NCBI GenBank assembly: GCA_903842505.1
Contig: CAIMMI010000012.1
Coordinates: forward strand, 1-32,849
Direction of reading: 5' to 3'
Source of the DNA: an uncultured Verrucomicrobiota bacterium
Lineage (GTDB): Bacteria > Verrucomicrobiota > Verrucomicrobiia > Limisphaerales > UBA9464
Length of the DNA: 32,849 nt
Shown here: positions 3,844 to 32,849 of the stretch, piece by piece
How the letters are laid out: each line of letters opens with the position of its first letter
How positions within the stretch are numbered: the stretch's first letter is position 1
Position numbers and translations under genes: made by a program
The notes under the pieces: generated by a model
What the model saw: the letters and a program-made list of their open reading frames with translations, nothing else
Told to the model about the DNA's origin: nothing
The model's database searches: none

Positions 3844-6800
3844 CTACAGCTTGGGATCCAGGGACTGCCGGATGAAATCGAACCTCGTATCCGACTTGAG
3901 CTGGGTGCGGAGGTTTGCGCCGGCCGGGTTGGTGGCGAGGCGTGAATCACTGAGTTGAAAGGCCTTCCGGAGGTTTCCGGCGGCGGAGCTCGACTTGCCC
4001 AGAACCGCTTGGACAGCGGCGAGCTGGTACCAGGCCTCCGGGCTGTCCGGCACCAGTCTGGCGTATCGTTCCATGGTGGTCTCGACACGATCGACCCGCT
4101 GCAGTTGCTGGTACGCCTGAGCCAGGGACGCAAGGGTGCGAAGGTCGGCCTCCGGCTTGGCCAGCAGGCTGTCGAGCACGGCGACGCCCTCGTTGCTCCG
4201 CCCCGTGTTGAAAAGGCTGCTGGCAACGTTGAACGCCGATTCCAGATTGGTCGCCGAAGCGGCAGCGACGGCGGCCGCCGCAGGTTGTGACGGTGTGCCA
4301 ACACCGGCAGCGGGAATGGGTGAATCCTTGTAGGGCTCAAGCTGCTTCAGGAGGTCGCGAATGCCCGCGTTGTCTGGGTCGATCTCGTAACAGGTGGCCA
4401 CGACCCGGTAGGCGTCCGGATACCGCCCGAGGCCCGCCAGCAGGGAGGCGTAATTGAAGACGGTTTCGGGGCTGTACGGGCAGAAGGCGAACGCCTGCTT
4501 CATCGCAAACTCCGCCTCCTTGATCAGCTTGGCCTGATAGGCCGGATCCCTGGCCTCCTGCGCCCGCCATCCGTAGACGGATTTGCCGATGGCATTGCGG
4601 AGTTTGCTGAAGGCCTTCTGGGCGTTGTCGTCACGGACGAAGCGGGCATCCCCCTTGAACACGGAGTAGTCCCGAAGCCGGTACGTGCGGACGGCGAACT
4701 CGCAGACTTCCTTTACCGGGGTTTCGTAGGTGATCCAGTTGCCGATGAACCGTTCCGAGTACTGGGACCAGTATTCATGGTCCCGCTCGATCTGGTCGTC
4801 GGTGAGTTGCGCAACGGGTTCCCGTTCGATCTTGAGGATGATGCCGTAGGGCACGAGATGCGGGTACATCCAGTCGAGCGCGAAGCTCTCCTCGACGTAG
4901 AAGGAGTGATCCGGGTTCTTGTCGAAGATGACCTTCGTGAGGAGGCCGTTGATGGACATCACCGCGGTCTGCCCGGATACCGAGACGCGGCCGTCGGGCA
5001 GTTGGGTCAGGACTTCGCCGGGCTTCAACTGGCGGGACTGGGCGCGACGCTGCGCGTCGATGCTGTACTCCTCGAAGCAGCGGCGGAGATCCTCCGGAGT
5101 CGGAGTCTGGATCTCACGGTCCGGGTAGAGTCCGCCAAGACTGGGTTTGATGAGTCCCGGGTAAGTCTCCTCAATGAGGAGTCGGTTGAGACGGATCCGG
5201 TTGTGGCCGGTCGGATTCTGGGCAGCGAATCGGGCAACGTGATCCGACAGCTTGACCGCCGCGAATCGGGTCGGTTCAAAGCAGGATGGACCTTCGATGA
5301 AGCGATTGAGCGCTTGGATCAGGGCGGCGGTGTCGCCGTTGCCCGCCGAGCCCAGCTTCTCCTTGAGGTATGCGGAGAAGGGATCGGCTCCCGCAGAAAT
5401 CCTGGCCTTCAGGGCGGCCGCGTCCTTGAGATCGTCCGTCTGGAAGTAGGAGGAGCCCGCCCGACGTTCCTTCTCGATGGAATCGCCCATGGCCGTCATC
5501 CAGCGGTCGATGGGCGCCATCAGGCTGGCGGAAAAGTTGGTCCGTCCCCGGGAGATGGAGACCGCATCATTCAGCGCGGAGTAGAAGAACGGCGGATCCT
5601 CCTGGGCACTCCGGTTGTAGTGAGCCCGGATGTAGTCGAGGTACGTATTGTCCGCGAGGGCGTTCTGGGTGATCAGGTAGACGTCCCGTCGGTCGAACCC
5701 GGGATTGCGACGGTGCTGCGGCGGAATGAAACTCTCGCAGAAGATCATGTACGTCGGGCAGAAGCGGCCTGGATCCGTGCCGCCGAAGAGCACGGTGTGC
5801 TTGTCCATCGACGGATAGAGCGGCTTGCCGTCCTTGCCCTTGGGGGCCGGTGCTGCGGAGGTGTTCGCACCCGGTTCAAACATGTCGTGGCCGAACCAGA
5901 ACCCGAAGTAGTGGTTCCGCTGCTCGTTGTCTGCCCAGTGATCGACGATCGAGTCGGCTGGAATCAGCGTGAACAAGGCAAGCACCAGCCCCAGACGGGT
6001 TCGGCTCGAAGGATCGACTGGAAAAGGCGCTGACGAAACGCTGGACACGGCACCGGCAAACGCAGTCGTTGTTTTCTGCCAGAGCAGGAGGAGCAGCAGC
6101 AGGACACAAGCAATCCCCAGGCTGATCCCGGCGGCGAGTCGAGGCAGGAAGAAGACGTTCTTCTCGGGATTCAGGACCTCGATCAGTTGATAAAGATTCA
6201 GGGAGACCGCGATCGTGGCCCCTGCCAGCAGGAGGGTCCGCCACTTCTGGTAGGCGTGCTGCAGGAGCACTCCCACAATGGCGATGCCGTACCCGACGAC
6301 CATGGCGATCATCACGTGCGACGAGGTGTAGAAGACCTTGACCAGTTCGCGCGACTGTTTGTCGGTCTGGGCGTTCAGCAGGTAGATGAGCAGGAACGCC
6401 AGGCAGAAATAGGTCGTGCTCAGCCCGATGAGCCAGCCTCTCTCCCTCGGCCTGAAGCGCTTGATCAGCAGGAACGGAACGATGGCGAAGATCAGGTTGG
6501 CGAGGTTGAACTCCTCTTTGACGCCTCCGAAATACGCGCTGATTTGGTCCAGCGTGATGCCGGGAGTCGTCTTCTCGTACTGACCCCGGGTGAATGCATG
6601 GACGAAGCCGTCCCACACGCGCGGATAACCCCAGTTCAGCGGCGGGTTCGTAACCGACGCCAATGGCATGTAGAAGTAATGGGCTGCACCGACCCCGAAC
6701 GAAATTCCAGACAGCAGGACGATGTGCAGCCGGGTCGCGATGGCACCCGTCAGGACCGCGGTCCAGATGGTTCCGATCGCCGAGAGGATGCCGACGAGGT

Positions 6801-7659
6801 TGAAGATCAGCAGCAGGGCCGGATTGTCGGCGAACGTCCGGATCTTGCCGCTCGCGTGCAGGCTGAGGCCAAGGATCCAGAAGGCGGTGTTCAGCAGGAG
6901 GAAGTCGCGGCCAACCCGCCGATCCGCCATCAGCACAAAGATCTCCAGTCCCATGGCGGCGACGATGAGTGTCTGGTGATTGCAGAGGCAGATGCCGAAC
7001 AGGAAGCACGCGATGTACAGGTGACGTCTTTGATGCGGAAACCAGGTGTATTTCTTGAGGCAGAACAGCACCCCCATGAGCGACCACACGGCGATGGTGT
7101 ACACTTCGACGATGACGGCTTGGCTCCAGATGTAGCCGTTGAAGCCCAGCAGCATGCCGGACACAAAACCCGTCACCAGCGAGATCCATTTGTCCAGGGT
7201 GACGTCACGGTCCTTGAGAAGGTCGACGGAATCCAGGATCAGTGCCGATCCACGGGAAACCAGCATGGCCACCATGCCGGCGGACATGGCGGCCGCGAAG
7301 GCCGACGAAACGGCCACCCGCCAGGCAATGTTCGAGAAGGGCAGGATCTTGGTGAAAAGCCAGGTGTACACTGTCCAGATCGGGTAGCCCGGCGGATGCG
7401 GAACACCTGCGTACATCGAGGCAACGGCGAGTTCCCCGGAGTCCTCCAGGGTCATGTCCGGGGCAATTGTCAAAAGGTAGCCCGCCATCACGATGATGCT
7501 GACCAGCACGAAGGCCAGCCAGTCTACCGGTCGGAACAGACGGCTCAACGGAGGCGGCGGCTCGATCTTGCCGCCGACGCCACCTCCGGCGACGGAACTC
7601 ATCTTGGGGACGGAGGCTGCGCCGGATGGGGCGCTCGGATTGGAACTCGCTTGTGCCAT
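3844..7659 (-). CDS. DUF2723 membrane glycosyltransferase-like protein with C-terminal TPR region
   Basis: The 1271-residue protein has an N-terminal proline/glycine-rich cytoplasmic stretch (1-40) and a first transmembrane helix at about 47-66. The DUF2723 signature follows: LEDSGELAVA at 71-80 and PHPPGYPIW. About ten more membrane spans run to roughly residue 560. DUF2723 proteins (human TMEM260 group) are GT-C-fold glycosyltransferases related to protein O-mannosyltransferases, with an acidic pair near the first extracytoplasmic loop; here it is E72-D73. A long extracytoplasmic part follows. From about residue 1090 it carries TPR-like helical repeats (for example EAWYQLAAVQAVLG and DLRTLASLAQAYQQLQ). 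Donor and acceptor are unknown; a lipid-linked sugar donor and protein acceptor would fit. It sits 30 bp downstream of the sigma factor/small membrane protein pair. Confidence 0.85.
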   Translation of the reverse strand: MAQASSNPSAPSGAASVPKMSSVAGGGVGGKIEPPPPLSRLFRPVDWLAFVLVSIIVMAGYLLTIAPDMTLEDSGELAVASMYAGVPHPPGYPIWTVYTWLFTKILPFSNIAWRVAVSSAFAAAMSAGMVAMLVSRGSALILDSVDLLKDRDVTLDKWISLVTGFVSGMLLGFNGYIWSQAVIVEVYTIAVWSLMGVLFCLKKYTWFPHQRRHLYIACFLFGICLCNHQTLIVAAMGLEIFVLMADRRVGRDFLLLNTAFWILGLSLHASGKIRTFADNPALLLIFNLVGILSAIGTIWTAVLTGAIATRLHIVLLSGISFGVGAAHYFYMPLASVTNPPLNWGYPRVWDGFVHAFTRGQYEKTTPGITLDQISAYFGGVKEEFNLANLIFAIVPFLLIKRFRPRERGWLIGLSTTYFCLAFLLIYLLNAQTDKQSRELVKVFYTSSHVMIAMVVGYGIAIVGVLLQHAYQKWRTLLLAGATIAVSLNLYQLIEVLNPEKNVFFLPRLAAGISLGIACVLLLLLLLWQKTTTAFAGAVSSVSSAPFPVDPSSRTRLGLVLALFTLIPADSIVDHWADNEQRNHYFGFWFGHDMFEPGANTSAAPAPKGKDGKPLYPSMDKHTVLFGGTDPGRFCPTYMIFCESFIPPQHRRNPGFDRRDVYLITQNALADNTYLDYIRAHYNRSAQEDPPFFYSALNDAVSISRGRTNFSASLMAPIDRWMTAMGDSIEKERRAGSSYFQTDDLKDAAALKARISAGADPFSAYLKEKLGSAGNGDTAALIQALNRFIEGPSCFEPTRFAAVKLSDHVARFAAQNPTGHNRIRLNRLLIEETYPGLIKPSLGGLYPDREIQTPTPEDLRRCFEEYSIDAQRRAQSRQLKPGEVLTQLPDGRVSVSGQTAVMSINGLLTKVIFDKNPDHSFYVEESFALDWMYPHLVPYGIILKIEREPVAQLTDDQIERDHEYWSQYSERFIGNWITYETPVKEVCEFAVRTYRLRDYSVFKGDARFVRDDNAQKAFSKLRNAIGKSVYGWRAQEARDPAYQAKLIKEAEFAMKQAFAFCPYSPETVFNYASLLAGLGRYPDAYRVVATCYEIDPDNAGIRDLLKQLEPYKDSPIPAAGVGTPSQPAAAAVAAASATNLESAFNVASSLFNTGRSNEGVAVLDSLLAKPEADLRTLASLAQAYQQLQRVDRVETTMERYARLVPDSPEAWYQLAAVQAVLGKSSSAAGNLRKAFQLSDSRLATNPAGANLRTQLKSDTRFDFIRQSLDPKL

Positions 7660-24290: not shown

Positions 24291-25289
24291 ATGACCACTG
24301 AGGAAGCCATCAGCCAGTTCCGAGAGACTTACGCCGCGATTCGAGCCGAGATTGGTCGGGTCATGGTGGGACAGGATTCCATTGTTGAGGGGACCCTCAA
24401 CGCGATTTTTGCCGGTGGGCATGTGTTGCTGGAGGGTGTGCCGGGGTTGGGAAAGACCCTGTTGGTCCGCACGTTGGGTGAGGTACTGGATCTGAGTTTC
24501 AGTCGAGTTCAGTTCACACCGGACCTGATGCCGGCAGACATTCTCGGGACCAATCTGGTGATGGAGTCGCCGGACGGGAGAAGGCAGTTCCAGTTCCAGA
24601 AGGGGCCGATTTTTGCCCATCTGGTGTTGGCGGATGAAATCAACCGGGCGACGCCGAAGACGCAGTCGGCGATGCTGGAGGCGATGCAGGAGCGGCAGGT
24701 GACTGCAGGGGGTGAAGTACGGCCGCTTCCGCAGCCATTCTTTGTTCTGGCGACGCAGAATCCCATTGATCAGGAGGGCACCTACCCGCTTCCGGAGGCC
24801 CAGTTGGATCGGTTTTTCTTCAAACTGATTGTTGGTTACCCGACGGCGGAGGAATTGACCGAGGTGCTGAATCGGACGACCGAAGGTGTGAAGGTTACGC
24901 CGAACAAGATGCTGGATGGGGCGGGTCTGGCGGAGTTGCAGAGACTGGTGCGGCAGGTGCCGATTGGTACGCATGTGAAGGACTACGCGGTGCGATTGGT
25001 TCTGGCGACGCATCCGAAAACGGGGACGGCGTTGCCGATCACCAATCAGTACCTTCGGTTCGGGAGCAGTCCGCGTGGTGGGCAGGTTCTGGTGCTGGCG
25101 GCCAAGGTGCGTGCGTTGACCCAGGGGCGGTTCAATGTGAGCTACGACGACATCGCAGCCGTTGCGGCGTCGGCCCTGAGACATCGGCTCATCGTCAATT
25201 TCGAGGCGGAAGCCGAGGGGATCACGACCGATCACGTGATCCAGCAGATCCTGAAGGATGTTCCCCGGGACGCGGGTGGAGCGGTCTGA
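24291..25289 (+). CDS. MoxR-family AAA+ ATPase
   Basis: The 332-residue ATPase carries Walker A GVPGLGKT (49-56), Walker B LVLADEIN (111-118), the MoxR phrase RATPKTQSAMLEAMQERQV, sensor 1 FFVLATQNPIDQEGTYPLPE and the EAQLDRF segment. MoxR proteins act as chaperones or remodelling ATPases with VWA-domain partners, often in metallo-enzyme maturation or stress responses. The gene opens a new operon 97 bp after the ribosomal terminator. No Shine-Dalgarno sequence lies before the ATG. The DUF58 partner follows after 19 bp. Confidence 0.93.
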   Translation: MTTEEAISQFRETYAAIRAEIGRVMVGQDSIVEGTLNAIFAGGHVLLEGVPGLGKTLLVRTLGEVLDLSFSRVQFTPDLMPADILGTNLVMESPDGRRQFQFQKGPIFAHLVLADEINRATPKTQSAMLEAMQERQVTAGGEVRPLPQPFFVLATQNPIDQEGTYPLPEAQLDRFFFKLIVGYPTAEELTEVLNRTTEGVKVTPNKMLDGAGLAELQRLVRQVPIGTHVKDYAVRLVLATHPKTGTALPITNQYLRFGSSPRGGQVLVLAAKVRALTQGRFNVSYDDIAAVAASALRHRLIVNFEAEAEGITTDHVIQQILKDVPRDAGGAV

Positions 25290-25308: not shown

Positions 25309-26235
25309 ATGGCTGGAATCCTGACACCGCAAGTGCTGAGGCGACTGGAGCAGTTCCAGTTGATCGCAGCGCGGCGGGCAAAGAGTTCTGCGAAGGGGGA
25401 GCGCCGCAGTCGTGCCAGGGGGCAGAGCGTCGAATTCGCTGATCATCGCAACTACGTCCTCGGGGACGACCTGCGCTATCTGGACTGGAATCTGTTTGGT
25501 CGACTCGATCGGTTGTTCCTGAAGCTTTATGAGGAGGAGCGTGAGCTTCCGGTGCGGATCTTCCTAGACGCGAGCGAGAGCATGTTGTTTGGAACACCTT
25601 CGAAGTTTGATTTCGCGCGACAGGTTGCGGCGGCGATTGGTTATGTGGCCCTCTGCGGGTTTGACCGGGTTTCGGTTCATGTTTTTCCAGACCTGACGGC
25701 CCAGAAGGAGGCCGACCTGACGCAGTACAACGCGCAGCTCGCGATTCGGGGAGCGCTTCGGAGTGTGCGGGGCAAGAAGTCCTCGCTGGAGTACTTCACG
25801 AACCTGACGGGGCTTCGGGGCGGAGGTGTGGCGGACTTCAACGGTGCGATGAAGCGTGGGGTTCTGGAGTCCCGGCAGGCTGGAGTTGCGGTGGTGCTCA
25901 GCGACTTTCTGGATCCGGCCGGGTATGAGCCGGGTTTGATGGCCTTGGTGGGACGGGGGTTTCAGGTGAACGCCATCCAGATCCTCTCCCCTGAAGAGTT
26001 GGATCCGTCCGCGTTCGGTGATCTCCGGTTGGTCGATTCGGAGACGGGATCCCTTCAGGAGGTCACGTTTGGCAAGTATCGGCTCGCTGCGTATCGCCAG
26101 ACGGTGGCGAACTACGTGCAGCGGCTTCGCGAGTTCTGTCAGGGGAGGGGGGCCAACTTTTTCAGCTGCAGTTCGGGAGAATCCATCGAAGACCTTTTGT
26201 TGCGACAATTGAGGTCGGCTGAGATGTGGGGCTAG
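25309..26235 (+). CDS. DUF58 domain-containing protein (MoxR partner)
   Basis: The 308-residue cytoplasmic protein has the DUF58 hallmark GQSVEFADHRNYVLGDDLRY, then LDWNLFGRLDRLFLKLYEEE. It continues into a VWA-like fold with a MIDAS-type DASES at 87-91. No membrane span is seen. DUF58 proteins nearly always accompany MoxR ATPases. The ATG at 25309 was chosen because AAGGGG stands 6-7 bp before it; an in-frame start 51 bp upstream would overlap the moxR-like gene and adds unrelated sequence. sorA follows after 11 bp. Confidence 0.92.
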   Translation: MAGILTPQVLRRLEQFQLIAARRAKSSAKGERRSRARGQSVEFADHRNYVLGDDLRYLDWNLFGRLDRLFLKLYEEERELPVRIFLDASESMLFGTPSKFDFARQVAAAIGYVALCGFDRVSVHVFPDLTAQKEADLTQYNAQLAIRGALRSVRGKKSSLEYFTNLTGLRGGGVADFNGAMKRGVLESRQAGVAVVLSDFLDPAGYEPGLMALVGRGFQVNAIQILSPEELDPSAFGDLRLVDSETGSLQEVTFGKYRLAAYRQTVANYVQRLREFCQGRGANFFSCSSGESIEDLLLRQLRSAEMWG

Positions 26236-26246
26236 CGAATGGAAGT

Positions 26247-27491
26247 ATGAGCTCGAAGGAACCAATGCGGGTACGGGACTTGAACCGACGGCGCTTCATC
26301 CGTGTAGCGGCGGGGGTGGCGGGAGGAATGGCTGCAGTCCCTGGGCTGATCGCGAACGAGACCTACGAAATGCCATTCGAGAATGGCAGCCGGGAACTGG
26401 TTCGGTATCCGGAGAAGCGGCCCCTGATCCGTCTGACGAGTCGCCCTCCCCAGTTGGAGACACCGATGGCGGTGTTCAACGAAGGGATCCTGACGCCCAA
26501 TGATGCCTTCTTCGTTCGTTATCATCTGGCTGGTTCACCCCCGTCCCGCGACGTGTTGACGCCGGACGCCTTTCGGTTGCAGGTCGTGGGTGCCGTCCGC
26601 AAGCCCATCGAGATCAGCATCGCCGATCTCCTTCGACGTTTCGAAGTGACGGAGGTGGTCGCGGTGAACCAGTGCTCGGGAAATGGGCGTGGCCTGTTTA
26701 CGCCGCGGGTGGGTGGCGGGCAGATGGGAAACGGGGCCATGGGATGCGCGCGGTGGAAAGGGGTGCGGTTGGTGGATGTCCTGAAGGCGGCCGAACTCGA
26801 GCCTGCTGCGAAGCAGGTGCTGTTTGACGGCATGGACAAGCCCGTGACGGCGACGATTCCCGACTTTGTGAAGTCGATCGAATTGGACCAGGCGCTGGAT
26901 CCGGATCTCCTGTTGGCGACGGAGATGAACGGCCAACCCCTGCCGTGGCTCAATGGATTCCCGCTGCGTCTGGTTGTGCCGGGGCACTATGGGACCTATT
27001 GGATCAAGCATCTTCACCAGATCACCGTGGTGGATTCGAGCTACAAGGGCTATTGGATGGATCCCGCCTACCGTATTCCCGACGATCCCTGTGCGCACAT
27101 CGAGCCCGGTTCCAAGCCCAGGCGCACGGTGCCCATCAGTCGGTTCAACGTACGTTCGTTCATCACCAGTCTTGCCGAGGGAGTCCAGGTGAGGTCGGGA
27201 GAAAAGCAGCGCGTTCGGGGAATCGCCTTCGATGGTGGGTCTGGCATTCGTGAAGTGACGTTTTCGGATGATGGGGGAAAGACCTGGCGTGGTGCGGAGT
27301 TGGGGCGGAGCGAGGGACGGTTTGGTTTCCGGGAATGGACGGTTGACTGGAAGCCTGCCGGTCCGGGTGAGCGGACCCTGTGGGCCAAGGCGACCAATCG
27401 GTTGGGGGAATCCCAACCGTTGGAGGCCTTGTGGAACCCCGCTGGCTATATGCGGAACGTGGTGGAGCCTGTGAAGGTGAGGATCGTATGA
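26247..27491 (+). CDS. sorA: Periplasmic sulfite dehydrogenase, molybdopterin subunit (SorA-like)
   Basis: The 414-residue protein is a sulfite oxidase-family molybdoenzyme that should oxidise sulfite to sulfate in the periplasm. A twin-arginine signal (NRRRFIRVAAGVAGG, about 13-27) fits Tat export of the folded Mo-cofactor protein. The molybdenum-binding Cys is C143 in VVAVNQCSGNGRG. Other family phrases are GCARWKGVRLVDVL, GFPLRLVVPGHYGTYWIKHL and the C-terminal dimerisation-domain phrase GIREVTFSDDGGKTW. ATG 26247 has GGAAG close upstream; ATG 26265, preceded by AAGGA, is an alternative. The stop overlaps the sorB start (ATGA). It lies inside a MoxR-type operon, which is unusual. Confidence 0.9.
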   Translation: MSSKEPMRVRDLNRRRFIRVAAGVAGGMAAVPGLIANETYEMPFENGSRELVRYPEKRPLIRLTSRPPQLETPMAVFNEGILTPNDAFFVRYHLAGSPPSRDVLTPDAFRLQVVGAVRKPIEISIADLLRRFEVTEVVAVNQCSGNGRGLFTPRVGGGQMGNGAMGCARWKGVRLVDVLKAAELEPAAKQVLFDGMDKPVTATIPDFVKSIELDQALDPDLLLATEMNGQPLPWLNGFPLRLVVPGHYGTYWIKHLHQITVVDSSYKGYWMDPAYRIPDDPCAHIEPGSKPRRTVPISRFNVRSFITSLAEGVQVRSGEKQRVRGIAFDGGSGIREVTFSDDGGKTWRGAELGRSEGRFGFREWTVDWKPAGPGERTLWAKATNRLGESQPLEALWNPAGYMRNVVEPVKVRIV

Positions 27492-27802
27492 ACCCACGAT
27501 GGCTTGGAATCCTTGCGGGAGTCCTGATCGCGGCCGTGGACTCTCCGGCGGATGAATGGAAGCTGCCGCCCGAGACGATAGCCCTCAAGCCTGGCAAGGG
27601 GCGCGAGGTCGTCCTTGGACAATGCGCGATGTGCCATTCGTTGGACTACATCACGACGCAGCCCCCGCTTCCCAAGGCTGGGTGGGTAGCCTCGATCGAG
27701 AAGATGCGTTCGAAGTACGGTGCGCCGGTTCCAACGAACTCGGTGGCACTCCTTGCGGATTACCTGACGGAGCAATACGGAAAGCCCGCCGCCAAGCCGT
27801 GA
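27488..27802 (+). CDS. sorB: Sulfite dehydrogenase cytochrome c subunit (SorB-like)
   Basis: The 104-residue protein has a short signal peptide (hydrophobic WLGILAGVLIAAV, residues 5-17) and one c-type heme site, CAMCH at 46-50. SorB-type phrases follow: SLDYITTQPPLPKAGW and MRSKYGAPVPTNSVALLADY, then LTEQYGKP. In SorAB enzymes this subunit takes electrons from the Mo centre of SorA and passes them to another cytochrome c. Its ATG overlaps the sorA stop by 4 bp, and the VWA gene follows after 7 bp. The small size is right for the family. Confidence 0.9.
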   Translation: MNPRWLGILAGVLIAAVDSPADEWKLPPETIALKPGKGREVVLGQCAMCHSLDYITTQPPLPKAGWVASIEKMRSKYGAPVPTNSVALLADYLTEQYGKPAAKP

Positions 27803-27809
27803 TCCTGCC

Positions 27810-29660
27810 ATGCGCTTCCTGACTCCGCTTGCATTCTGGTTCGCGTTGGCCCTGCCGGCGGTGGTCGTCTTTTACCTGCTCAAGCGCAAGCGAGTGACCC
27901 GGGTTGTTCCTTCGACCCTCCTCTGGCAGCGATTCCTGGCGGAGACGCAGGCCAGTGCTCCCATGCAGCGACTGCGCCACAATTGGCTCCTGCTCCTCCA
28001 GTTGCTGTTGTTGCTGCTCCTGGTGCTGGCACTGGCCCGACCCTATTTTGCCGGCAAGGCGGGACTGGGTCAGATGCAGGTGGTCGTATTGGACGCGAGT
28101 GCGTCGATGCAGGCCACCGATGAAACGCCGTCGCGATTCGAGCGCGCGCGCAAGGATGCGCTTGCCTTGGTGGACGCCTTGGCGGTTGGGAAGGGAGGGC
28201 AGATGGTGGTCCTGGTTGCGGGTGCCAATGCCGAGGTTCGACAGAGCGCCACCTCGGAAAAGGCGTCGCTTCGTCGGGCGCTGGAAGGAGCCCGGGTTAC
28301 GGATTCCCCGACACGATTGGCGGAGGCCCTGAGGGTTGCGGAAACCCTGATTCGGGATCGCCCCGATGCGGAGATCCATTTGTTCAGTGATGGTGCCATC
28401 CCGGAGTTGGCCGAGTTCGAGACGCGTGACCTGAGGCTCGTCTATCACAAGGTTGGCAAAGGTGCGCGGAATGCGGGGATCGTGGCCTTTGACGTGAAGC
28501 CCAATCCTGAGGACCCAGCCAAGCGTGCGCTGTTCCTGAGCGTCGCGAATCACCGGTCGGAGTCTGTGGATGCGCGGATCGAGTTGGCCTTTGATGGCCA
28601 GTTGATTGAGACGAAGGCGGTGATGCTGGAGGCCACCAACACGACGCCGGTGGTCTTCATTGCATCGCAGGCGCGCGATGGGGTCTATACCGCGCGGTTG
28701 GTCGCGGAGGATGACCTCGCTGCGGACAATCAGGCGAGCGTGGTTTCCCTCATGCCGCAGCCGGTGCGGGTCCTGCTGGTTTCGCGCGGAAACCGTTTTC
28801 TCGAGAAGGCCCTCGCGGCGGCCGGCGTCAATGTCGAACTGAGCCTGGCTGCGGACCACAGTTCGGCGGACGCGGGTCGGCATGACGTTGTTGTGCTCGA
28901 CGACGTGGTTCCTTCGGAGTGGCCCAGGGGCAATGTGCTCGCCATCCATGTTGCGCCTACCAATTGGTTCGAGGCGCCGATCGGTGAGATCGAGTCGCCT
29001 CCGATCGTGAACTGGCGCAACACACATCCGTTGCTCCGTTTTGTCTCGTTCGACAGCGTGCAGATTGCCAAGGCGCAGCAGGTGAAGTCGCCCGCTTGGG
29101 GCGTGTCGTTGGTTGATGCGCCGCAGTCGCCGTTGGTTATTGCCGGGGAGATGGGTCGGCAGCGGGTGGTGTGGGTGGGATTCGACACGCTGGAGAGCAC
29201 CTGGCCGTTGCGAATCAGTTTTCCGATCTTCCTTGCGAACGTGGTGGATTGGTTGAACCCGGCGACGGCGAAGGCGGAGCAGTTCCTCGTCAAGTCGGGG
29301 GACGCGTTCCGTCTGCCACTGGCCGCTCCCGTGACGAGCGGGTCAGTTACTGGGCCGGATGGCAAGGTGCAGACGGTCACCCTGGCGCCTGAGGCGTCCG
29401 AGTTCGTGTGGTCGGACACGGGCCGGCAGGGCATCTACCGGGTTCAACTGGGCACCAACCAGTTGGCATTTGCCGCCAACCTCCTGGATGCCGCGGAGAG
29501 CAACATCCGTCCGCGGGAGACTCTGGATCTGGGTCGTTTCACGCAGGTGAAGGCGACGACCGAAAAGGATGCGAACCTGGAGTACTGGCGATGGTTCGCC
29601 CTGGCCGGCCTGGCGGTGATGTTGGGCGAATGGTGGTGGTTCCACCGCCGAACCGCATGA
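27810..29660 (+). CDS. BatA-like VWA membrane protein
   Basis: The 616-residue protein starts with a BatA-type membrane segment (FLTPLAFWFALALPAVVVFY, then STLLWQRFL). A second hydrophobic helix lies at about 59-76. A VWA domain follows with the MIDAS motif DASASM (95-100) and the phrase HLFSDGAIPELAEF. Residues ~225-580 are predicted extracytoplasmic beta-rich sequence, including a glutamine-amidotransferase-like stretch with VVVLDDVVPSEWP. A last transmembrane helix lies near 592-608. Such proteins work with MoxR and DUF58 proteins, here split from them by sorAB. The stop overlaps the start of the next gene (ATGA, 29657-29660). Confidence 0.88.
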   Translation: MRFLTPLAFWFALALPAVVVFYLLKRKRVTRVVPSTLLWQRFLAETQASAPMQRLRHNWLLLLQLLLLLLLVLALARPYFAGKAGLGQMQVVVLDASASMQATDETPSRFERARKDALALVDALAVGKGGQMVVLVAGANAEVRQSATSEKASLRRALEGARVTDSPTRLAEALRVAETLIRDRPDAEIHLFSDGAIPELAEFETRDLRLVYHKVGKGARNAGIVAFDVKPNPEDPAKRALFLSVANHRSESVDARIELAFDGQLIETKAVMLEATNTTPVVFIASQARDGVYTARLVAEDDLAADNQASVVSLMPQPVRVLLVSRGNRFLEKALAAAGVNVELSLAADHSSADAGRHDVVVLDDVVPSEWPRGNVLAIHVAPTNWFEAPIGEIESPPIVNWRNTHPLLRFVSFDSVQIAKAQQVKSPAWGVSLVDAPQSPLVIAGEMGRQRVVWVGFDTLESTWPLRISFPIFLANVVDWLNPATAKAEQFLVKSGDAFRLPLAAPVTSGSVTGPDGKVQTVTLAPEASEFVWSDTGRQGIYRVQLGTNQLAFAANLLDAAESNIRPRETLDLGRFTQVKATTEKDANLEYWRWFALAGLAVMLGEWWWFHRRTA

Positions 29661-30676
29661 GCAAGGGATCCCGAAACCTCTCCAATGCGCTGCTGCTGAT
29701 CTTCTCGGTGGCAATCCTGATTGGACTGCTCGTGTTGGCCCTCCTCGGGGCTGGCTTTGGAGGGGTGTATCGTGGCGATCCCGGTGTCAGGAATCGTTCC
29801 AAGGCATCCGCGGCTGCGCTGGTCCTGTACTGCGCACAGGATCAGGACTTCGCCGAAAAGGTCATCGCCGAGTTTTCCCGCAAGACCGGGATCGAAGTCA
29901 GGGCGGTGTATGACAGCGAACTGACCAAGACGGTTGGTCTTGCCAACCGATTGCTGGCCGAACGCGACAACCCACGCGCGGATGTCTTCTGGGGCAACGA
30001 GGAACTCCGTACCCGCCAGCTGGCGGACCGGGGCGTCTTCGGGACGAACCGAATCGGTGTTTCCGATGCGGGTTGGGTGGCCTTTGGTGCCCGTACCCGA
30101 CGACTCGTCGTCGATCCCCAAAGACTGCCGGAGAAGGATCGTCCGACGAGCCTGATTGAACTGACGAATGCCCGGTGGAAGGGGAGGGTTTCCCTGGCGG
30201 TGCCGACGTTCGGGACGACCTCGACGCATTTCCACGCCCTGCGGGCTGCATGGGGGGAAGTGGCTTGGCGTCGATGGTGCGAGGCCCTGGCAGCCAACAA
30301 GCCTTTCCTTGAACCGGGCAACTCGCATGTGGTCCGGCGCGTGGCGCGTGGTGAGGCGCTGGTTGGCATTACGGATTCCGACGATGTGACGGTCGCGAAT
30401 CGGGGCGGTGCGCGGGTAGAGGCACTGCTGTTGGAGCGGGATTTTCTGGTCATTCCAAACACGGTTGCCTTGGTGCGACCGGCCGCTCCGGAGTCGCCGG
30501 CGCGGCAGTTCCTGGGGTTCGTGTTGTCCGCCGGGGTGGTACAGGAATTGGTGACAGCCGGCGCCCTCGAAAGTCCGGTTGCTCCGGTTGGGGCATGGCT
30601 TCGACCGGACTGGAGACGAGTACTCGGGGATCTGGACATGGGCATCGGGGAATTGGAATCGAGGTTCCGGCGATGA
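29657..30676 (+). CDS. ABC transporter solute-binding protein, iron(III)-type, membrane-anchored
   Basis: The 339-residue protein resembles FbpA/AfuA-type binding proteins: LVLYCAQDQDFAEKVIAEFS, TGIEVRAVYDSELTKTVGL, ADVFWGNEELRTRQL, then FGTTSTHFHALRAAWGEVAW and VGITDSDDVTVANRG. Instead of a cleavable signal it has a long hydrophobic N-terminal segment (about 11-36) and no lipobox Cys, so it is probably tethered by an uncleaved helix. The substrate could be ferric iron or another small anion or polyamine-like ligand. ATGA overlaps at both ends link it to the VWA gene and to the permease gene. Confidence 0.82.
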   Translation: MSKGSRNLSNALLLIFSVAILIGLLVLALLGAGFGGVYRGDPGVRNRSKASAAALVLYCAQDQDFAEKVIAEFSRKTGIEVRAVYDSELTKTVGLANRLLAERDNPRADVFWGNEELRTRQLADRGVFGTNRIGVSDAGWVAFGARTRRLVVDPQRLPEKDRPTSLIELTNARWKGRVSLAVPTFGTTSTHFHALRAAWGEVAWRRWCEALAANKPFLEPGNSHVVRRVARGEALVGITDSDDVTVANRGGARVEALLLERDFLVIPNTVALVRPAAPESPARQFLGFVLSAGVVQELVTAGALESPVAPVGAWLRPDWRRVLGDLDMGIGELESRFRR

Positions 30677-32849
30677 CTCCCTACTGGAATACCGTCTGGG
30701 TATCCGCTGGCGCCGCGGTGCTGGCGACGGGGATGGGTTGGGTGGTGGCGTTGGCGTGGTTGGGGAGCGGCGCCCGGTTGCGGCGAAGCCTGATGGGGGC
30801 GTGTGCCGTGACGCTGGGATTGCCTCCGTTCCTCTTGGCCAACTGTTGGCTCGAACTGACGGCTGGGTTGCGTCTGGAGTGGGGTGCCCAACACTCGGCG
30901 ACCGCCATGTTGCCGCTGACCTCGCTGGTACTTGGAGCCATGCTGTGGCCGATCCCGGCTCTCGTTGCCATCGCCGCATGGAGCCGGGTCGAGTCCTCAA
31001 CGCTCGAGTCCTTCCCGGGTCTGCGAGCGGGGAGTCTGCTCCGGCATGTCCTCTGGCCTGCGACCGCTGCGGGCAGCGGATTCGCGGCGCTGCTCAGTCT
31101 GTTTTTGGCCGCATCGAACTTCACCATTCCGACGCTCTTTCAGGTTCGGGTCCTTCCGGAGGTCCTGTGGGTGCGCTTCAATACCCAATTGGATGTTGGG
31201 GCTGCATGGCGGGAGGGATGGCCCTTGGTGGCCGGTGGAATCCTGGCATTGGCGCTGGGATGGAATGGGCGAGTGCGATGGCCATTCGAACGGGGATCCG
31301 CGGCACCTCGCGACTGGAGGCGGTCGCTGGGGTGGTGTTGGGGTGTCGCGTTGGCCGGCTTGGGGGTTGTGCTCGGGCTTTCGCTGGGCATTCCGTTGCT
31401 CCGCCTGGTCCAGTCCCCGCGCACCTGGGCCGAACTGGTTCCTGCCGTCCGTGCTGGATCGGGAGCCCTCTGGACCTCGGCTTGGATCGCGGCTTCGGTC
31501 GCGGCCGTCCTCTTGGTCATCACGCTCGGGTTGGCGCGGAAGGCGGACTGGTTCCGTCGGATCGGGCCGTTGGCTTGGCTCTGGTTCCTGACGCCCGGAA
31601 TCCTGACGAGTTCGCTTTGGGTCCCCATTCTCGCGAAACCGGTCGCTGCTTGGGTGGCCGATTCGGCGCTGGCTTACTGGCTCGTACTGATCCCGCGCTA
31701 TCTGGCCCTGGCGTGGTCGCTCGCAACGGTGGCCGCCAGTCGAGTGGATCCAACCGTTGTCGAATCGCTCCGGATGGCCGGTTGTGGAGCGGTTCGGTCG
31801 TGGTTGGTTGGAACGTGGCCGCAGATGCGGGGGCTGTGCCTGGCTGGGGCCTACGCGACGTACCTGCTCGTCCTCTGGGATGTTGAATCGATCCTGCTCG
31901 TCATGCCGCCCGGGCTTGAGACTGCGGCGGTGCGGGTCTTCAATCTGCTTCACTACGGCCACGCGGGTCAGGTGAACGCCCTTTGCCTGGCGTTGCTGGG
32001 GTTGGCCGTGCTGCCTTTGGCTCTGTGGGCGGTGGGTTCACGCATCCGGATGCGCGCGGGTTGGGTGGCGGCGGGTGCCCTTATGGTTGCCGGTTGTTCC
32101 GGGGATGAGGATCGCCAGTCCCGGTATCCGATCGAGAGTCGGTGGTTCAGCCACACCCAGATCATTGGCCGACGGGGCGTGGCGCCGGGCCAGTTCAACA
32201 AGCCGCGGTCGCTCGTCTGTGACCGCGACGACAACCTCTACGTTGCCGACGTCACCGGACGGATCCAGAAGTTCGATTCCAACGGCCGATTCCTCCTGCA
32301 ATGGCAGATGCCGCAGACGGACCTCGGGAAGGCCAAGGGAATGGGGTTGGATCCCGAGGGTCACGTCCTCGTGATCGAACCGCATTACATGCGGGTCAAC
32401 CATTTCGACGGCAATGGTCGGTTGCTGGCGCAGTGGGGAACCCGTGGAACGAATGCCGGCTCGTTCATCCTGCCGCGCGATGTCGTCGTCAATTCGCGGG
32501 GCGAGTACTTCCTCAGCGAGTACACGGTCGTGGACCGGGTCCAACGGTTTGGTCCGATCCGCTTCGGGAGCAATTCGGTCCCCCTCGAAATGCCGCGTTT
32601 CGAAGCGGTCTGGGGGCAACCGGGTGATGCCGCAGGCCATTTCAACCGGGCGGAGGGGCTCGGCATCGGGCCGAGGGACGAGGTCTTCGTCGCGGATTCG
32701 TGCAACCACCGCGTCCAGGTCTTCGACCGTGAGGGCAGGCTCTTGCGGACACATGGCAAACCGGGGTCCAATGCCGGGCAGTTCAGCTATCCCTTCGACA
32801 TTGTCGTGGACGCCCGGGGCAGCCAGTTCATCTGCGAATTCGGCAACAG
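30673..32849 (+). CDS. ABC permease (iron-type) reading in frame into an NHL-repeat lipoprotein-like domain (partial)
   Basis: From ATG 30673, which overlaps the previous stop, a single frame stays open to the window edge (725 codons, no stop). Residues 1 to about 458 are an FbpB-type double permease with about ten to twelve hydrophobic segments. It has EAA-like loops at ESFPGLRAGSLLRHVLWPAT and VVESLRMAGCGAVRSWLVGT. From M460 the sequence looks like a separate lipoprotein: MRAGWVAAGALMVAGC, with lipobox Cys 475. NHL/beta-propeller repeats follow (GQFNKPRSLVCDRDDNLYVA, AGSFILPRDVVVNSRGEYFL, and FNRAEGLGIGPRDEVFVADS, then GQFSYPFDIVV). Either this is a true fusion or the NHL protein starts internally. 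The ATP-binding subunit is not in the window. Confidence 0.75.
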   Translation, partial: MTPYWNTVWVSAGAAVLATGMGWVVALAWLGSGARLRRSLMGACAVTLGLPPFLLANCWLELTAGLRLEWGAQHSATAMLPLTSLVLGAMLWPIPALVAIAAWSRVESSTLESFPGLRAGSLLRHVLWPATAAGSGFAALLSLFLAASNFTIPTLFQVRVLPEVLWVRFNTQLDVGAAWREGWPLVAGGILALALGWNGRVRWPFERGSAAPRDWRRSLGWCWGVALAGLGVVLGLSLGIPLLRLVQSPRTWAELVPAVRAGSGALWTSAWIAASVAAVLLVITLGLARKADWFRRIGPLAWLWFLTPGILTSSLWVPILAKPVAAWVADSALAYWLVLIPRYLALAWSLATVAASRVDPTVVESLRMAGCGAVRSWLVGTWPQMRGLCLAGAYATYLLVLWDVESILLVMPPGLETAAVRVFNLLHYGHAGQVNALCLALLGLAVLPLALWAVGSRIRMRAGWVAAGALMVAGCSGDEDRQSRYPIESRWFSHTQIIGRRGVAPGQFNKPRSLVCDRDDNLYVADVTGRIQKFDSNGRFLLQWQMPQTDLGKAKGMGLDPEGHVLVIEPHYMRVNHFDGNGRLLAQWGTRGTNAGSFILPRDVVVNSRGEYFLSEYTVVDRVQRFGPIRFGSNSVPLEMPRFEAVWGQPGDAAGHFNRAEGLGIGPRDEVFVADSCNHRVQVFDREGRLLRTHGKPGSNAGQFSYPFDIVVDARGSQFICEFGN
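32050..32849 (+). CDS. Alternative reading: separate NHL-repeat lipoprotein with internal in-frame start (partial)
   Basis: If translation restarts at ATG 32050, the product begins with a 15-residue hydrophobic signal and the lipobox V-A-G-C, then SGDEDRQSRYP and at least three NHL-type repeats. That is a complete lipoprotein architecture for the outer face of a membrane. There is no Shine-Dalgarno sequence, and no stop codon ends the permease before it, so this start would be nested inside the longer frame. It is listed separately because the lipobox would be meaningless in a fused protein. Confidence 0.45.
   Translation, partial: MRAGWVAAGALMVAGCSGDEDRQSRYPIESRWFSHTQIIGRRGVAPGQFNKPRSLVCDRDDNLYVADVTGRIQKFDSNGRFLLQWQMPQTDLGKAKGMGLDPEGHVLVIEPHYMRVNHFDGNGRLLAQWGTRGTNAGSFILPRDVVVNSRGEYFLSEYTVVDRVQRFGPIRFGSNSVPLEMPRFEAVWGQPGDAAGHFNRAEGLGIGPRDEVFVADSCNHRVQVFDREGRLLRTHGKPGSNAGQFSYPFDIVVDARGSQFICEFGN

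Follow-up and report, generated by a model that had tools for sequence, protein, structure and literature searches.

The DNA analysed here (referred to as the window) is a stretch of 32,849 nucleotides from an uncultured Verrucomicrobiota bacterium of the order Limisphaerales (assembly GCA_903842505.1, contig CAIMMI010000012.1), and it ends in a single open reading frame in which an FbpB-like ATP-binding cassette (ABC) transporter permease continues, through a basic linker and an internal lipoprotein signal peptide, into an NHL-repeat propeller. This fusion is real and is kept by one group of Verrucomicrobia. We consider it likely that the gene encodes a membrane polyprotein that is cut at the internal lipobox, that the fusion arose via the loss of an intervening ATPase gene, and that the ATPase is now borrowed. 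With slightly more reserve, we also regard as likely a broader proposition, namely, that LspA serves here as a polyprotein protease, with permease and lipoprotein made 1:1, an arrangement kept by most locus-bearing members of the order after the ATPase gene was lost, and that, in another family, the same lipoprotein was independently fused to the ATPase.

The window is the entire contig C12 of a 5.2-Mb genome assembled in 362 contigs, and the contig terminates within the fusion gene. On the plus strand, the frame 30673-32847 contains no stop codon, and re-reading confirmed that it stays open through the contig end at 32849, as claimed in an earlier note on this DNA. The FbpB-like permease part, itself made of two halves, comprises residues 1-455 (30673..32037, plus strand), and is followed by the basic linker (SRIRMR) and the internal lipoprotein signal peptide, residues 456-474 (32038..32094, plus strand), a region that is variable in both sequence and length across the 96 fused frames described below. 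The lipobox cysteine is Cys475 (LMVAGC; TGT at 32095..32097, plus strand); both this residue and M460 (ATG at 32050-32052) lie where the earlier note had placed them. The first part of the NHL propeller (Pfam NHL, E 7.6e-12) occupies 32098..32849 (plus strand), with the remainder on another contig, C317. Positions 32731-32849 of the window form an exact 119-base repeat at the start of the reverse-complemented C317 (L033 3259-3377), and this overlap is an assembly break inside the fusion gene. When the two contigs are joined, the full chain consists of 796 amino acids, of which the last 71 are encoded on C317, and the TGA of the fusion gene overlaps the ATG of a downstream gene for a large vWA/GATase1-like protein. 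Because the join can be read through, it is apparent that the fusion gene runs past the window and that no ATP-binding gene is located directly downstream; the place to the right of the window where an ATP-binding subunit gene had been proposed to be sought is taken by the vWA/GATase1-like protein gene instead.

Profile and fold comparisons bear out the identification of the two parts as an FbpB-type permease that continues in frame as an NHL-propeller lipoprotein. In a profile search with a 57-row alignment of relatives (A2), the permease half matched 9j4r_A, “Iron ABC transporter permease” (E 6.7e-30, profile positions 2-423), and FbpBC, 9j4r, was also retrieved by Foldseek (E 5.1e-13) with L074, a full-length relative that is 61% identical to the window protein. 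The Pfam family BPD_transp_1 was found in 32 of the 57 members, the window permease itself showing no match to this family at E<=1, and the NHL domain was detected in all 57. The closest structures to the second half in the profile and fold searches include the NHL domains of TRIM/Thin and PknD (1rwi/1rwl). The AlphaFold2 model of L074 (mean predicted local distance difference test score, pLDDT, 90.2; predicted template modeling score, pTM, 0.84) contains two confident parts and a weak junction, with a mean pLDDT of 55 for residues 461-470 and 40 for residues 471-480.

A search of 96 genomes, including the source genome, produced matches to the window protein in 70, and most of the strongest matches cover both halves and are stop-free. 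We re-read by script 179 loci (L002-L031, L034-L152 and L182-L211), with relatives picked by match and some genomes represented twice. Among these, 163 are fused in one frame, four (L034, L035, L036 and L049) are split, and 12 contain one part only, including several at contig ends. The 163 fused loci correspond to at least 96 distinct sequences, which is a lower bound because the 120-residue dereplication key lumps rows without “KPR”. Thus, proteins spanning both parts, which the earlier note had suggested looking for, do exist, and its counter-expectation that orthologous loci would always encode permease and lipoprotein separately did not hold. The two single-contig genomes G504 (locus L231) and G529 (locus L232) as well as the single-cell genome SCGC AAA164-E04 (locus L151) all carry the fusion with a lipobox.

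Across the window's order, 159 of the 293 genomes contain a match at E <= 1e-60, and in 113 of the 293 a single match covers both halves, without a stop in 85. The other 28 consist of 14 with a stop that were nevertheless re-read as fused, G592, which is split, and 13 with one unplaced stop, so that 99 genomes of the order hold both halves in one frame, either stop-free or as re-read. In 8 further genomes among the 159 with a match, a contig end interrupts the locus, and in the remaining 38, the halves are separate or a single half is present. Of 387 genomes sampled across the phylum, 62 contain a match at E <= 1e-20, and among the matches listed, none outside the order joins the permease with the propeller. 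Among 80 public records, two are titled only “bacterium”, and the others name Verrucomicrobia or members of this group (for example, Pedosphaera, Limisphaerales and subdivision 3). Six records titled Akkermansia muciniphila (L073, L086, L092, L110, L114 and L150) carry the locus and look mislabelled.

The junction between the two parts is dominated by a single residue. We analyzed two alignments, A1 (37 rows) and A2, the columns of which are independent of the rule used to locate the cysteine in the 96 distinct frames (the last Cys preceded by Gly, Ala or Ser). Cys475 is identical in every row of both (37 of 37 in A1, 57 of 57 in A2), and no other column within residues 430-490 is invariant; Gly474 is present in 96% of the A2 rows, and every other column in 453-485, Cys475 apart, reaches 49% at most. 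A fitting cysteine, located behind a hydrophobic stretch as in a lipobox, is present in all 96 frames, preceded by Gly in 88, Ser in five and Ala in three. The distance between the QVNAL motif and the lipobox cysteine ranges from 36 to 113 amino acids across these frames, and the linker sequence drifts as well; given such variable spacing, the cysteine is held by selection of its own. The net charge of the linker is positive in 46 of 46 cases (+1 to +13), which fits its probably being a cytosolic loop, and the topology that the earlier note had found plausible, with the former signal peptide forming an additional span, agrees with this positively charged, probably cytosolic stretch in front of it. 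In the fused loci, the signal peptide is internal and follows the permease, and in the split loci L034-L036 and L049, it is N-terminal. The source genome encodes both LspA (PF01252, 119.5 bits) and Lgt (PF01790, 212.7 bits). For Verrucomicrobia, “[FLYT]GC” lipoboxes are reported in PMC10260701. The very long linkers of L047, L048, L050 and L198 look like translated interspersed repeats inserted in frame into the cytosolic linker.

Loci outside the order suggest how the two genes came to be joined. In G099 (L221), the permease gene is followed by genes for an ABC ATPase, a propeller lipoprotein with its own signal peptide, and a vWA protein, and in G292 (L225), the genes for the binding protein, the permease and the ATPase are adjacent. 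The ATPases of these two loci, the latter beside its permease, share 45% identity. Because relatives outside the order carry the ATPase between the two halves, the simplest account is that the fusion probably arose by loss of the intervening ATPase gene, which would have joined its neighbours. In G330 (L222), also outside the order, the genes for a binding protein and a permease (no BPD_transp_1 match at E<=0.001) are followed by one 596-codon frame (5464-7254) that encodes an ABC ATPase and an NHL propeller, with an internal signal peptide and the lipobox LILSSC between them. The same ATPase-NHL frame, 66% identical to that of L222 and with the lipobox LVSC, is found on the minus strand of L247 (G692), and in their family, f86, two of the six genomes contain a match. 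Here the lipoprotein was fused a second time, independently, to whichever gene precedes it.

Within the order, BLAST searches of 141 loci with three ATPases identified no ATPase gene inside the cluster: there were matches in nine loci, of which eight are outside the order, and in the ninth, the fused locus L085, the ATPase is on the other strand, approximately 5.3 kb away. By motif scanning, no linked ATPase was detected in the window or in L034-L072 either; this type of scan did detect ATPases in relatives outside the order but overlooked that of L222. The nearest listed PF00005 match is 58 kb from the fusion in G529 and about 297 kb away in G504, and the search for an orthologue of the L221 ATPase in the genomes of the order returned generic matches only, with at most 44% identity among the matches listed. 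We infer that the permease must use an ATPase encoded elsewhere, perhaps a shared one.

In some lineages of the order, the two genes are separate. A tree of the NHL part, built with a quick method, contains 62 fused rows, sampled from 94 eligible ones by taking the first 30 and then every other row (two of the 96 had insufficient length), together with 17 rows assigned to the split state; two of these 17, L037 and L042, reach a contig end and might not be genuinely split. This tree requires 10 changes between the fused and split states, of which the starred branches force two; the split genus g3 adjoins fused rows within the window's own family (Shimodaira-Hasegawa-like approximate likelihood ratio test, SH-aLRT, 92, inside a starred clade). 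Separation of the halves takes several forms: G592 has stops between them, in family f2 they are located apart, and in G512 (L228 5350-7985), an insert between permease and lipoprotein contains genes for an AAA ATPase, a second protein and a prepilin-like protein, the first two of which look like RloA/RloB.

The mechanism that we propose starts with a step that can be read directly from the sequence: from one gene, the ribosome makes the FbpB-like permease, then the basic linker, the lipoprotein signal peptide and the NHL propeller, without a stop. The C-terminal end of the permease would be located in the cytosol, and the signal peptide would insert as an extra span, placing the cysteine at the outer face of the membrane. 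Lgt would then attach diacylglycerol to Cys475, and LspA would cleave before this residue, releasing the propeller as a lipid-anchored protein of its own and leaving the permease with one additional short helix at its C-terminus. Given that the internal lipobox is invariant and that LspA and Lgt are encoded in the genome, the chain is predicted to be cut and the propeller to become an ordinary lipoprotein.

The earlier note had envisaged a different outcome, a lasting transporter channel that carries its own propeller. Under this scenario, the propeller would remain an extracytoplasmic part of the permease chain, and the cysteine would provide an extra lipid anchor or have some other use; the single open frame throughout and the topology would allow it, and importers with fused outer domains are known (PMC8025302). 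We nevertheless consider an uncut fusion unlikely because the invariant lipobox, with Gly before the cysteine, is a site for Lgt and LspA, both of which are encoded. Lgt-modified lipoproteins are normally cut, and the split relatives produce the propeller as a free lipoprotein, both of which argue against lasting tethering.

Another alternative, already raised in the earlier note, is a nested in-frame gene, that is, production of the lipoprotein from an internal start, with the read-through chain as a by-product or a second product. A start codon would be expected to be kept if the lipoprotein had its own start, and mostly, it is not: within the 13-40 codons before the cysteine, ATG is absent in 67 of the 96 frames, and ATG, GTG and TTG are all absent in 24 of the 96, which disfavours a nested start. 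Moreover, a Shine-Dalgarno match of at least 5 bases occurs at that place in only three of the 96 frames, and a nested gene leaves unexplained the absence of a stop codon behind the permease in at least 96 distinct frames. In the split loci L034-L036 and L049, by comparison, the permease frame ends in a stop that overlaps the next start (ATGA or GTGA), a GGAGG site is present, and the same lipoprotein is made from its own start. A nested gene thus seems quite unlikely as the general explanation.

Several observations weigh against the polyprotein reading, and some of them suit an internal start. An in-frame ATG is present in the relevant range in 29 of the 96 frames, the window included, where M460 would suit a short signal peptide, so that an internal start is possible in the source species. 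The separate ATPase-lipoprotein fusion keeps an ATG (GMKV) before the signal peptide in both of its examples, L222 and L247, and a nested start is accordingly possible there. Little weight can be placed on the missing Shine-Dalgarno sites, given that many other starts in these loci have none either: the control found one at 14 of 46 and at 4 of 27 starts, and because the permease starts in the control had been chosen partly by Shine-Dalgarno site, 14 of 46 is, if anything, high. Leu occupies position -3 of the lipobox in just 19 of 45 cases, and the insertion of the signal peptide, like lipidation and cleavage at Cys475, is deduced from what is established about Lgt and LspA. Finally, in the NHL tree, L221 is placed within the order on a long branch, which makes the date of the ATPase loss unsure.

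The remaining possibility named in the earlier note, that an indel, a chimera or a missed stop in the window assembly created the frame, has practically no chance of being correct: the contig break does fall within the fusion gene, but the relatives refute a sequencing error or chimera, with the fusion recurring in at least 96 distinct frames, the two single-contig genomes and the single-cell genome.

The fusion gene is the last gene of the window in a cluster that starts with a MoxR AAA+ ATPase (24291..25289, plus strand; AAA_3, E 1.5e-63) and continues, on the same strand, with a DUF58 protein (25309..26235; DUF58, E 7.1e-28), a BatA-type vWA membrane protein (27810..29660; BatA, E 9.6e-15, and VWA_2) and the solute-binding protein of the importer (29657..30676; SBP_bac_11, E 5.6e-13, and SBP_bac_6), the stop of which overlaps the ATG of the permease (ATGA). 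We examined 98 neighbourhoods, with some genomes counted twice, some neighbourhoods cut by contig ends, and DUF58 left out of the count. The importer, propeller and vWA genes are grouped in the order: the solute-binding protein gene is present in 87 of these, the downstream vWA gene in 89, the upstream, BatA-type vWA gene in 78, and the MoxR gene in 45 of the 98, most of which have 8 kb or less of upstream sequence. Between the DUF58 and vWA genes of the window (26226-27802), there are a gene for a molybdopterin (sulfite-oxidase-like) enzyme and a small gene, probably encoding a cytochrome c, though without a Pfam match; both genes are found in 12 of the 98 neighbourhoods.

Among known systems, the closest parallel appears to be FbcH of Bradyrhizobium and its relatives. 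FbcH is a cytochrome b/c1 polyprotein that is cleaved by signal peptidase. As in the fusion described here, one frame joins a multi-span membrane protein to a protein that is exported, and an internal signal peptide marks the point where the two meet. FbcH differs in that it is cut by the ordinary signal peptidase and yields a cytochrome, whereas the lipobox of the present fusion points to signal peptidase II, so that a lipoprotein would result. By this analogy, the fusion would work most like FbcH, with a lipobox in place of the ordinary cleavage site. PMC12456017 uses the name “cytochrome b/c1 subunit”.

Other likenesses are confined to single parts of the system. FbpBC of Thermus thermophilus (9j4r) shares the two-half permease, and here the gene for a solute-binding protein adjoins; in contrast to FbpBC, the gene cluster contains no ATPase gene, and the permease continues at its C-terminal end into a propeller lipoprotein. 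OpuA is an importer with a fused substrate-binding domain. GlnPQ, as described in PMC8025302, likewise has an extracytoplasmic domain within the permease chain. Compared with GlnPQ and OpuA, the fused domain here is an NHL propeller, with a lipobox between the two parts, and the fusion is unlike GlnPQ-type importers because the binding protein is encoded by a separate gene. PknD resembles the fusion in having an NHL propeller outside the membrane and differs in lacking both the permease and the lipobox junction present here. It is a kinase sensor. The MoxR-vWA-beta-propeller ternary systems (PMC7159879) combine MoxR with vWA proteins and a propeller within a single gene cluster, as is the case here. 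The difference is that an importer is present in the window and that its MoxR, while above the bpMoxR cut-off (46.8 bits against 27, E 2.4e-12), fits AAA_3 (212.9 bits) far better. Among the papers listed by the literature search, none describes a permease-lipoprotein fusion of this kind.

If the polyprotein reading is correct, LspA can process a signal peptide behind a multi-span membrane protein, and a lipoprotein need not begin its chain, so that predictors checking only N-termini would miss such lipoproteins. The locus would also be a clean case of two genes turning into one polyprotein through the loss of the gene between them, with the split relatives as natural controls, and the result would be an importer that must borrow its ATPase.

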